Shown here: piece after piece, positions 1,314 through 60,776 of the stretch
How positions within the stretch are numbered: position 1 is the stretch's first letter
Layout: each line of letters begins with the position of its first letter
The notes under the pieces: model-generated
What the model was told of the DNA's origin: nothing
The model's database searches: none
Seen by the model: only the letters and a program-made list of their open reading frames with translations
Made by a program: the position numbers and the translations under genes
From: Gadus chalcogrammus
Taxonomy: Eukaryota > Chordata > Actinopteri > Gadiformes > Gadidae
Length of the DNA stretch: 64,000 bases
Reading direction: 5' to 3'
Assembly: GCF_026213295.1 (NCBI RefSeq)
Contig: NC_079412.1
Span: 19,590,033 to 19,654,032 of the forward strand

Positions 1314-1503
1314 AATGGGGTTATAAAATACGTCTGGAGGTAAGTGTTATTACTGGTTTGATACAGAACACAATAATATGTGTGACCCTAGCTGGCAGTG
1401 TTGTTATTAGTTGATGACCTTGTAATGAACCCAATGTTGATATTTTATTCACATTTTTATTTGATTGAAAAGGAAACAGAGGAACCAAACAGGAGGTTGA
1501 ATG
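1314..1503 (+). CDS. Gene A micro-exon pair 1
   Basis: Exon A 1314-1339 (26 nt, acceptor ctctatag, donor gtaagt) encodes EWGYKIRLE. Exon B 1473-1503 (31 nt, acceptor gaaaag, donor gtaagc) encodes ETEEPNRRLN plus the first base of the next Gly/Glu/Asp/Ala codon. Phase runs 1 to 0 to 1. Confidence 0.72.
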
Positions 1504-59800: not shown

Positions 59801-60776
59801 TTATAACCATGATGTTAGTTTAATCTATAGATTTGAATAACATGTATCATGGTTATAACCATGATGTTAGTTTAATCTATAGATTTTAATAACATGTATC
59901 ATGGTTATAACCATGATGTTCGTTTAATCTATAGATTTAAATAACATGTATCATGGTTATAACCATGATGTTCGTTTAATCTATAGATTTAAATAACATG
60001 TATCATGGTTATAACCATGATGTTAGTTTAATCTATAGATTTAAATAACATGTATCATGGTTATAACCTGACCCTAAACAGACCATAATGGAGATCCTTT
60101 GTTGCTGCCCTACATGCCAGTAGGCATAAAGGGCAGTCAGTAAGTACCATGGTGACATTAGACTAACTAATGATAGTGACTGCTGTCCTGACATGTTACT
60201 GTATTGTTTATCTCTATATAGCATTGTGGAGACGACTTGATGAGGTAAGTGTTATTACTGGTTTGATACAGAACACAATAATATCTGTGACCCTTGCTGG
60301 CAGTGGTGGAGTTATTAGATGATGACCTTGAAATGAACCCAATGTTGATACTTTATTTACATTTTTATTTTATAGAAAAAGAAAACACAGGAACAGGAGA
60401 GGAGGTTGAATGGTAAGTTCTTATTCCACATGTTTCACTTTCTAAATGAGTAACAGATAACTTAGATAGAATATATTGAGCAGTTCGTAATAATAGGATC
60501 CATACCTTTCATAATATCAATCATAGTCCTGGGAGGTACGGGTTAGATTAAACTCTGACATGTATCATGATAACATTAAACTACTGACATGTATTGTGTT
60601 TAGATTGAACTAAAATGTATCATGATACATTAAACTAACATGTATCATGGTTACATTAAACTAAGATGTATCGAGGTTAACATATATCAGGGTTATGCTG
60701 AATGAAATTGACTGCTCTCCTAACATGTTACTGTATTGTTTATCTCTATATAGAATTGGACCATCGATTATTTGAG
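41714..60776 (+). CDS. tnfrsf14-like: Gene C: TNFRSF14-like receptor, 3' end not in window (spliced)
   Basis: Exons 41714-41843, 41955-42080, 42558-42690 (fused exon 3/4) and 44451-44581 (TM), then a fused A/B micro-exon and 17 further micro-exons to 60776. The visible coding sum is 1056 nt (352 codons) with no stop and consistent phases. It has a shortened third cysteine-rich domain. No Ser/Thr/Pro, VNTR or terminal exon is seen, and the duplicated block breaks at about 62691, so either the 3' end lies beyond 64000 or the gene is truncated. Confidence 0.7.
41955..42080 (+). CDS. Gene C exon 2: CRD1-CRD2
   Basis: 126 nt, [20 protein letters not shown] then [20 protein letters not shown]; ends VTG where gene B has DRG. 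Confidence 0.85.
42137..42510. repeat. 27/29-bp minisatellite in gene C intron 2
   Basis: About 13 units, variant ends CAGAA, CAGTA and CAGAGAA. Confidence 0.92.
42558..42690 (+). CDS. Gene C fused exon 3/4
   Basis: 133 nt, phase 1 to 2. Starts like gene B exon 3 ([27 protein letters not shown]) and ends like exon 4 ([17 protein letters not shown]). The rest of exon 3, intron 3 and the start of exon 4 are deleted, yet the entry and exit phases equal those of the two separate exons, so the frame is kept while several CRD3 cysteines are lost. Confidence 0.78.
43398..44216. mobile_element. 819-bp fold-back MITE
   Basis: Ends CAGTGGTAGGCATAAGTTTA and TATGCCTACCACTG; nearly the whole element is an imperfect palindrome (for example AAATTGATCTTAATGCCTCA versus its complement near the right end; CCTTTGGAATTAAAATAGCC versus GGCTATTTTAATTCCAAAGG). 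Flanked by TTTA on both sides; gene B lacks it. Mariner-like ends, but the target site is not a plain TA. Confidence 0.72.
44232..44415 (-). mobile_element. tRNA-derived SINE-like element, gene C copy
   Basis: Homologue of 20660-20840, minus-strand GGTTCGATCCC retained. Confidence 0.4.
44451..44581 (+). CDS. Gene C TM exon
   Basis: 131 nt, phase 2 to 1; stalk [20 protein letters not shown] as in gene B, then helix [14 protein letters not shown] to IISLVLGG. Confidence 0.86.
44885..44926 (+). CDS. Gene C fused A/B micro-exon
   Basis: 42 nt between acceptor ttcatag and donor gtaagt, reading [14 protein letters not shown]. The first part matches a juxtamembrane A exon and the last part a B exon; the A-B intron and about one codon block are missing. 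Phase 1 to 1, so it replaces a pair without changing frame. Confidence 0.76.
45705..46554 (+). CDS. Gene C HOR1 pair 1
   Basis: Exon A 45705-45730 encodes EWEKLIDEM. Exon B 46524-46554 encodes [10 protein letters not shown]. The intron contains the hAT-like MITE at 45813-46460. Confidence 0.76.
45813..46460. mobile_element. hAT-like MITE, copy 2
   Basis: 648 bp, same termini and same ATGATGAC flanks as copy 1. The CTCF-like core is degraded (CCAGCTGGGAGCGC). Confidence 0.85.
46780..47105. repeat. 52-bp palindromic minisatellite (6 units)
   Basis: Each unit contains the perfect dyad ATCATGGTTATAACCATGAT and a second near TAATCTATAGATTA. Paralogous arrays: 53535-53668 (2 units) and 59628-60068 (8 units). 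Confidence 0.93.
47260..47450 (+). CDS. Gene C HOR1 pair 2
   Basis: Exon A 47260-47282 encodes ALWEQLDK. Exon B 47414-47450 encodes [12 protein letters not shown]. Confidence 0.76.
47867..50406 (+). CDS. Gene C HOR1 pair 3, split by LINE fragment
   Basis: Exon A 47867-47889 encodes ELVDRYNK. Exon B 50370-50406 encodes [12 protein letters not shown] (donor gtaaat). A 2.4-kb LINE fragment sits in the intron. Confidence 0.74.
47936..50295 (-). mobile_element. L2/CR1-like LINE fragment, copy 1
   Basis: Minus-strand decayed reverse transcriptase ([41 protein letters not shown]) and the endonuclease-RT linker, 5'-truncated, broken by frameshifts. The left end (gttcaaggagtttaattgtc) looks like the fish L2-type 3' end. 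At the catalytic site the residue before Ala-Asp-Asp is a TGA stop (48811-48822). A MITE interrupts it at 49554-49839. Confidence 0.8.
49554..49839. mobile_element. TTAA-flanked palindromic MITE in LINE copy 1
   Basis: Starts TTAAAGGGGACCTATCATAT and ends ATATGTCCCCTTTAA; largely self-complementary (GGTGTGAGTGTGATTAGCCA versus TGGCTAATCACACTCACACC). TTAA target suggests a piggyBac-type movement. Copy 2 at 56233-56515. Confidence 0.75.
51101..52926 (+). CDS. Gene C HOR2 pair 1
   Basis: Exon A 51101-51126 encodes EWKQQIDEM. Exon B 52896-52926 encodes [10 protein letters not shown]. The intron holds the enlarged hAT-like MITE. Confidence 0.75.
51209..52832. mobile_element. hAT-like MITE, copy 3, carrying a nested element
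   Basis: Flanks ATGAAGAC/ATGATGAC. Enlarged to 1624 bp by an insertion at 51575-52453. Keeps CCAGCAGGGGGCGC at 51550-51563. Confidence 0.82.
51575..52453. mobile_element. Nested second hAT-like element
   Basis: Ends GTGCTGGGCGATATACC and ...CATACACCCCAGCAC, flanked by AATTGGTG/AATTGGCA. Absent from the other three MITE copies, so it inserted after the higher-order duplication. The 135-codon ORF at 51492-51899 spans the junction and is not recognisable. Confidence 0.68.
53535..53668. repeat. 52-bp palindromic minisatellite (2 units)
   Basis: Shortest of three paralogous arrays. Confidence 0.9.
53822..54012 (+). CDS. Gene C HOR2 pair 2
   Basis: Exon A 53822-53844 encodes ALWRRLDK. Exon B 53976-54012 encodes [12 protein letters not shown]. 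Confidence 0.76.
54384..57144 (+). CDS. Gene C HOR2 pair 3, split by LINE fragment
   Basis: Exon A 54384-54406 encodes ELIQRYNE. Exon B 57108-57144 encodes [12 protein letters not shown]. Confidence 0.75.
54691..54794. repeat. (CA)n microsatellite in LINE 3' region
   Basis: 52 CA repeats, versus about 6 in copy 1 (48003-48014) and about 42 in copy 3. Confidence 0.97.
56233..56515. mobile_element. TTAA-flanked palindromic MITE in LINE copy 2
   Basis: Orthologue of 49554-49839; present at the same LINE position, so its insertion predates the unit duplication. Confidence 0.74.
58046..59012 (+). CDS. Gene C HOR3 pair 1
   Basis: Exon A 58046-58071 encodes EFEKQIDDL. Exon B 58982-59012 encodes [10 protein letters not shown]; acceptor is the weak 'tattaaaag'. 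Confidence 0.74.
58154..58918. mobile_element. hAT-like MITE, copy 4
   Basis: 765 bp, ATGATGAC on both sides, CTCF-like core intact at 58495-58508. Confidence 0.85.
59628..60068. repeat. 52-bp palindromic minisatellite (8 units)
   Basis: Longest of the three arrays, regular 52-bp spacing. Confidence 0.94.
60222..60412 (+). CDS. Gene C HOR3 pair 2
   Basis: Exon A 60222-60244 encodes ALWRRLDE. Exon B 60376-60412 encodes [12 protein letters not shown]. Confidence 0.76.
60754..60776 (+). CDS. Gene C HOR3 pair 3, A exon only
   Basis: 23 nt encoding ELDHRLFE with normal splice sites. The partner B exon expected after the LINE is absent because the block ends at about 62691. Confidence 0.68.

Follow-up and report, generated by a model that had tools for sequence, protein, structure and literature searches.

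What do the many tiny exons encode that follow the transmembrane (TM) exons of a receptor gene cluster in Gadus chalcogrammus (walleye pollock), and what kind of selection acts on them? We analysed a window of 64,000 nt of contig NC_079412.1 (positions 19,590,033 to 19,654,032), in which HVEM-like (TNFRSF14-like) receptor genes are clustered, three of them in view and all on the + strand. Gene 1 enters with its tail half (1314-12199), the 5' half lying outside the window; gene 2 is complete (17454-32561); gene 3 begins inside (41714-60776) and has its 3' end outside. Micro-exon copies were located by flank searches, all on the + strand, and in the window they comprise 20 A exons (23 or 26 nt), 20 B exons (28, 31 or 37 nt) and one fused A/B exon (42 nt). 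Judged from its sequence, this hypervariable array in HVEM-like receptors is coding and in-frame, and its peptides probably diversify under strong selection.

Every A and B exon in the window is preceded by AG and followed directly by GT; A exons run from phase 1 to 0 and B exons from phase 0 to 1. The proposed frame contains no stop in 388 codons (0/169 in A, 0/219 in B). Exon counts, splice sites, compatible phases and absence of stops were all as stated in the original prediction. The other forward frames hold stops at 8/149 and 27/149 codons in A and at 12/219 and 5/199 in B. One reverse frame of B is likewise stop-free (0/219), and the frame argument is therefore weaker for B alone. The B exon at 29603-29633 has no intact A exon upstream; the phase that it requires is the one in which a stray duplicate of the downstream exon C (29332-29393) ends. 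The array extends past the window: in 334 kb of the same chromosome we found 99 donor matches (50 A and 49 B), 94 of which gave exons that fit in both length and frame, the other five being three fused 42-nt exons (among the B matches) and two A matches without GT at the expected place. More flank matches lie at 28.00-28.10 Mb (as flank matches only). Just one of the 94 extracted micro-exons carries an in-frame stop, against a mean of 28 of 92 exons (minimum 15 in 2000 runs) when the class consensus is substituted at random; together with the absence of stops in the window, this rules out open frames by chance. Near-full-length relics of the TM exon served as an internal control, with an in-frame stop in 22 of 26 and a frameshift in 7 of 26.

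Joined in silico, the four cysteine-rich domain (CRD) exons, TM exon, 18 micro-exons, exon C, 51-nt-repeat exon and last exon of gene 2 give 543 amino acids (aa) without a stop. An alternative join that takes in the unpaired B exon via the stray exon C copy gives 574 aa and is also open, and a gene adjoining the window on the outside yields a complete open frame of 551 aa. For gene 1, the frame is based on the individual exons and on the database model P0002. Intact last exons number six on the contig: four lie at 19.55-19.67 Mb and a further two at 27.67 Mb. There are also six weaker matches, one of them with a stop. In the gene 2 model, PF00020 (TNFR_c6) matches three stretches (E 3.8e-15), as in the cysteine-rich TNF receptor superfamily. 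HVEM/TNFRSF14 and ELR1 are the best solved matches of this ectodomain, and CD40/TNFRSF5 is also among the best; the likeness to HVEM is one of similarity. A hydrophobic stretch, helical in the predicted model, lies in a single exon between the CRDs and the array. In humans the tails of HVEM and CD40 are short and are not known to be encoded by micro-exon arrays.

The micro-exons differ among themselves far more than do the introns around them. Between window copies the difference is 0.543 for A exons and 0.413 for B exons (54% and 41%), against 0.115-0.142 (12-14%) in the flanking introns, and the exon difference exceeds that of the donor flank in 189 of 190 A pairs and 187 of 190 B pairs. Micro-exon divergence thus amounts to 3-5 times flank divergence, with length class and frame kept. 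In the 18 independent pairs with a flank difference of up to 3%, the proportion of nonsynonymous differences (pN) is 67/426 (0.157), that of synonymous differences (pS) 3/93 (0.032) and that of flank differences 18/1566 (0.011); nonsynonymous sites differ from flanks at P = 5e-31 and from synonymous sites at P = 6e-4, and synonymous sites from flanks at P = 0.11. Choosing pairs by low flank divergence could itself bias such a comparison, and we controlled for this by picking pairs on one flank and measuring on the other (pN 0.235/0.284, pS 0.097/0.176, other flank 0.060/0.073). As a partial control, pairs picked on the distal intron gave pN 0.272 (A) and 0.300 (B), pS 0.087 and 0.232, and distal intron 0.022 and 0.027; here the 30 nt of proximal flank were compared unaligned, so that insertions and deletions inflate the value for that flank. 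Under control the effect is smaller but persists, and we reject the choice of pairs as its cause.

Across all same-length pairs, codon positions 1, 2 and 3 differ by 0.41/0.48/0.29 (A) and 0.40/0.41/0.26 (B), the third being the least different. The last exon of these genes has pN 0.017 and pS 0.035, and between cod P0016 and pollock gene 2 the tail differs at 12 of 125 residues, compared with 1 of 70 residues in the last exon. Because the exons diverge beyond the introns, pN exceeds pS, third positions differ least and the frames are open, we consider it probable that strong diversifying selection acts on the micro-exon peptides and not on the last exon. Exon lengths had been expected to be kept while introns decay; length class and frame are indeed kept, but the introns are far more alike than the exons, and conserved exons in decaying introns are ruled out by the excess of exon divergence and the low divergence at third positions. 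The proposed selection on coding stands, in a diversifying and not a conserving form, and the exon and intron substitution patterns, when compared, are not equal.

In the regular genes the micro-exons form a higher-order unit, A26-B31-A23-B37-A23-B37, of 177 nt or 59 aa, and units of the array also contain partial copies of the TM exon. Judged from the sequence, the A-B pairs multiplied through duplication of a unit that also holds a dead TM-exon relic. Database members of the family with one A-B-like stretch exist (for example, P0036 and P0019), which suggests, on the basis of these members and not of a tree, that a single pair gave rise to the array.

We compared the array with 51 proteins retrieved from a database clustered at 90% identity. 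Models from Gadus and Arctogadus contain micro-exon tails, and exact micro-exon peptides follow one another in genomic order in P0002 (14), P0001 (12), P0016 (6) and P0009 (5). Exact peptides were found in the set for 15 of 40 window micro-exons. Six models (P0002, P0003, P0008, P0009, P0010 and P0021) join CRDs to at least two micro-exons. With the open 543-aa and 551-aa joins, these same-order peptides bear out the claim that the micro-exons belong to the coding sequence of TNFRSF genes. Tail length varies among genes, as anticipated, and among models. The named matches in the search for tail relatives are gadids, and P0045 is an environmental protein without a tail. No tail relative outside gadids was among the database matches; absence of the tail there is not established by this search, because it needs exact shared words and similar length. 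Literature searches in an open-access library turned up no TNFRSF member whose tail is built in this way, which fits the original prediction.

AlphaFold2 models of P0001 and P0002 render the tail as a confident helical rod (predicted local distance difference test scores of 92-97 and 93-98, respectively), in which helices of ~35 and ~15 residues alternate. The 59-aa repeat of the regular genes, encoded by six micro-exons (26+31+23+37+23+37 nt), is predicted to fold as tandem short three-helix bundles, and in the P0002 model the rod runs continuously from the TM helix. Foldseek returned no match in the PDB at E below 0.001 for either rod model, the tail had no solved sequence relatives at E up to 1, and the spectrin family profile did not match the gene 2 or gene 3 tail up to E = 1. 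Neither a death domain nor any other Pfam domain was found in the tail above cut-off.

On balance, we favour an explanation in which this HVEM-like cluster carries a juxtamembrane tail of tandem A/B micro-exons that has been diversified and probably forms a variable intracellular interaction rod. Judged from the sequence, tandem pairs of A (23/26 nt) and B (28/31/37 nt) exons encode the juxtamembrane cytoplasmic region; downstream of them lie a linker exon, an exon of 51-nt repeats and a last exon common to the genes. The helical rod would act as an intracellular interaction surface that can change in length and sequence; it might bind a fast-changing partner, such as a pathogen factor inside the cell or an adaptor of signalling that pathogens attack, or it might let each paralogue associate specifically with itself. 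The rod would change in length, with the frame left unbroken, through duplication of genes, loss or gain of exons in pairs and splicing that skips whole pairs.

Several observations weigh against this explanation. Mean entropy is 1.25 at other positions versus 1.18 at hydrophobic ones, so that the variable positions do not cluster on the surface of the model, and a confinement of variability to that surface was not seen. We also rejected docking repeats for TRAF: the TRAF2-like motif [PSAT]x[QE]E occurs 3 times in B exons versus a shuffle mean of 2.5 (P = 0.47). Peptides of 25 of the 40 window micro-exons have no exact match among the retrieved proteins. The tail-bearing database proteins are predicted models, not reads; P0009, the representative gene 3 model, omits most gene 3 exons, jumping from 47414-47450 to an exon ~35 kb downstream (R1 172111), and the tail-bearing P0001, P0014, P0016 and P0031 lack ectodomain and TM segment. 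Outside the closest pairs pS, too, exceeds intron divergence (B pS 0.232 vs distal intron 0.027, above), as it does in pairs taken at looser flank cut-offs, and codons with at least two changes number 17 among the changed codons versus 10 at random (P = 0.0015). Finally, pN lies above pS in two small sets of control exons as well, CRD2 with 3 copies and exon C with 8 copies whose pairs are not independent, so that the diversification signal may extend beyond the micro-exons.

The rod might instead be mainly a spacer or self-association stalk, a role proposed for the chicken BG tail, and its diversification might merely stop paralogues from mixing; we regard this as possible if unlikely. A helical rod modelled with confidence and joined to the TM helix in P0002 would suit this role, as would the several paralogues sharing one chromosome (six intact last exons) and the BG precedent (PMC4046983, PMC5938342). 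On the other hand, the bundles are modelled as intrachain three-helix bundles, in models of single chains, and strong selection across many positions exceeds the need of a spacer. More doubtful is a germline-diversified recognition rod, with the tails, and perhaps tail-only proteins too, recognising or evading fast-changing intracellular pathogen factors; such a rod would be an intracellular analogue of variable extracellular receptors.

Exchange of segments without selection for diversity, in which conversion homogenises the introns and the exons keep old differences or swap segments, would account for the excess of multi-change codons and for the pS raised in wider sets of pairs. Because of these same two signals, segment exchange probably contributes beside point mutation. 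As the whole explanation it is improbable: it gives no account of why conversion would spare just the exons of 23-37 nt, of pN lying well above pS in the closest pairs, or of third positions being the least different.

It is very improbable that the main product of the array is a free-standing cytosolic helical-rod protein, expressed from a promoter inside the gene and lacking the receptor part. P0001, P0014, P0016 and P0031 do start just upstream of the array; these models may merely have been split by long introns, and the six models named above connect CRDs to micro-exons. A Dscam-like choice of a single A-B pair per transcript, which the phase equivalence of all pairs and the few pairs in P0003 and P0009 would allow, is hardly credible given the many pairs in genomic order in P0001, P0002 and P0016, in which models inclusion is therefore cumulative.

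For the diversified interaction rod, the closest known counterpart in manner of working would be the chicken BG tail, although the two receptors are unrelated. Chicken BG genes, of the butyrophilin family, have a long helical tail built from many tiny exons, 13 to 36 per gene, and variation in the tail, not the ectodomain, appears to be selected (PMC4046983, PMC5938342). The two systems share a transmembrane immune family in a fast-changing cluster and a selected helical tail of many micro-exons, the helix here being known by model. They differ in that BG exons are heptads of 21 (18-24) nt, whereas the pollock exons, which are not 21-nt heptads, measure 23/26 and 28/31/37 nt with alternating sizes and phases; the BG tail is a presumed coiled coil and the pollock tail is modelled as tandem three-helix bundles; and the BG ectodomain is of immunoglobulin V type, that of pollock of TNFR type. 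In pollock, exon divergence is much greater than intron divergence, a comparison that the BG passages do not contain. Snake venom genes, known for ASSET and accelerated exon evolution, also change exon segments radically within a multigene family (PMC2711939), but venom proteins are secreted whereas the changing pollock exons encode a cytoplasmic region. Dscam has tandem phase-equivalent exon duplicates (PMC3236188), as does pollock; Dscam exons are mutually exclusive, whereas single pollock models, which are not reads, include many in series (12 exact peptides in P0001, 14 in P0002).

Features of the three genes are given in the table.

Table. Exons of the receptor genes in the window, all on the + strand, with database models that contain them or their peptides.
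Gene	Feature	Peptide or content	Position	Database models
1	A (26 nt)	EWGYKIRLE	1314..1339	P0002
1	B (31 nt)	ETEEPNRRLN	1473..1503	P0002
1	A (23 nt)	ECIEVLLE	3593..3615	
1	B (31 nt)	RIPEQEAECY	3753..3783	
1	A (26 nt)	ELADQIREM	9611..9636	
1	B (37 nt)	KRVKEEQDGEFY	9762..9798	
1	exon C	phase 1 to 0; GAAGE... linker	10702..10763	
1	variable-number tandem-repeat exon	51-nt repeats, PAGLETSIPPAPSSETQ	11016..11280	
1	last exon	TAA stop	11988..12199	
2	exon 1	signal peptide, first CRD part	17454..17583	
2	exon 2	CRD	17695..17820	
2	exon 3	CRD	18068..18226	
2	exon 4	CRD	18560..18644	
2	TM exon		20867..20994	
2	A (26 nt)	ALVYKRNQE	21157..21182	
2	B (28 nt)	KKETLQLFV	21314..21341	P0016
2	A (26 nt)	DFEKQIPKM	22160..22185	
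2	B (31 nt)	ETPELERECY	23104..23134	P0010, P0016
2	A (23 nt)	DLYSQLLK	24059..24081	P0010, P0016
2	B (37 nt)	KKTTTEQKKKLR	24217..24253	P0016
2	A (23 nt)	GLRIEFVE	24539..24561	P0010
2	B (37 nt)	KRKTLEQDSQLT	24693..24729	
2	A (26 nt)	ERMYRQLLE	25574..25599	
2	B (31 nt)	ETQDLNRRLT	25737..25767	
2	A (23 nt)	ELIDRLHE	27185..27207	
2	B (37 nt)	KMLTPKQKWKLN	27339..27375	P0016
2	A (23 nt)	GFIHRLLK	27767..27789	P0016
2	B (31 nt)	DTADLEMAFV	27926..27956	
2	stray exon C copy inside array	phase 1 to 0; could feed next B in frame	29332..29393	
2	B (31 nt), without A partner	ETPKKWWESA	29603..29633	
2	A (26 nt)	ALVCRRHQK	30409..30434	P0033 (C-terminal 8 residues, different context)
2	B (37 nt)	KKKTQEPNRELN	30553..30589	
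2	exon C		31222..31283	
2	variable-number tandem-repeat exon	51-nt repeats	31547..31811	
2	last exon	TAA end	32350..32561	
3	exon 1	signal peptide, CRD	41714..41843	P0009
3	exon 2	CRD	41955..42080	P0009
3	exon 3	CRD	42558..42690	P0009
3	TM exon		44451..44581	P0009
3	fused A/B (42 nt)	open frame	44885..44926	P0009
3	A (26 nt)	EWEKLIDEM	45705..45730	P0009
3	B (31 nt)		46524..46554	P0009
3	A (23 nt)	ALWEQLDK	47260..47282	P0009
3	B (37 nt)		47414..47450	P0009
3	A (23 nt)	ELVDRYNK	47867..47889	left out of P0009
3	B (37 nt)		50370..50406	
3	A (26 nt)	EWKQQIDEM	51101..51126	
3	B (31 nt)		52896..52926	cod P0031
3	A (23 nt)	ALWRRLDK	53822..53844	
3	B (37 nt)		53976..54012	
3	A (23 nt)	ELIQRYNE	54384..54406	
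3	B (37 nt)		57108..57144	
3	A (26 nt)	EFEKQIDDL	58046..58071	
3	B (31 nt)		58982..59012	
3	A (23 nt)	ALWRRLDE	60222..60244	
3	B (37 nt)		60376..60412	
3	A (23 nt)	ELDHRLFE	60754..60776	

Copy number in the 51-nt repeat exon (PAGLETSIPPAPSSETQ) differs by gene, with nearly identical copies: 5 repeat matches per window gene, against 9 and 2 in two neighbouring genes, whose repeat exons lie at R1 52399-52867 and R1 173779-173893. In the Arctogadus model P0033 the juxtamembrane part runs into sequence that by eye resembles goose-type lysozyme, possibly through a wrong join of two genes. Upstream of gene 3, an orphan copy of the first CRD exon (39122-39252) runs into a tandem repeat. Tandem repeats of 27/29 nt at 39172-40117 and 42130-42510, intron-like DNA beside CRD exons, contain long open frames (LYQKLCCSC...), which we rejected as genes and regard as repeat artefacts. 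Open frames that look by eye like reverse transcriptase lie on the - strand at 4271-7645, 8338-9048, 48098-48685 and 61267-62639; they resemble non-LTR elements inserted in the introns, and the frame at 8338-9048 repeats the end of a 1124-aa frame.

As a rule, it is the signalling tail of a receptor that stays conserved. In these genes the tail is the part that evolves fastest, its A exons diverging more than 4 times as much as the surrounding introns with frame and exon classes kept. Together with chicken BG, this would be the second, independently built cytoplasmic tail of many micro-exons under selection, belonging to a different receptor family and a different class of vertebrates. The codfish lineage has lost class II of the major histocompatibility complex (PMC9276791), and gadids would be a natural place to ask if the intracellular tails of immune receptors join arms races. 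The array may also serve as a test bed for the splicing of micro-exons and for the diversification of short exons by point change or segment exchange.

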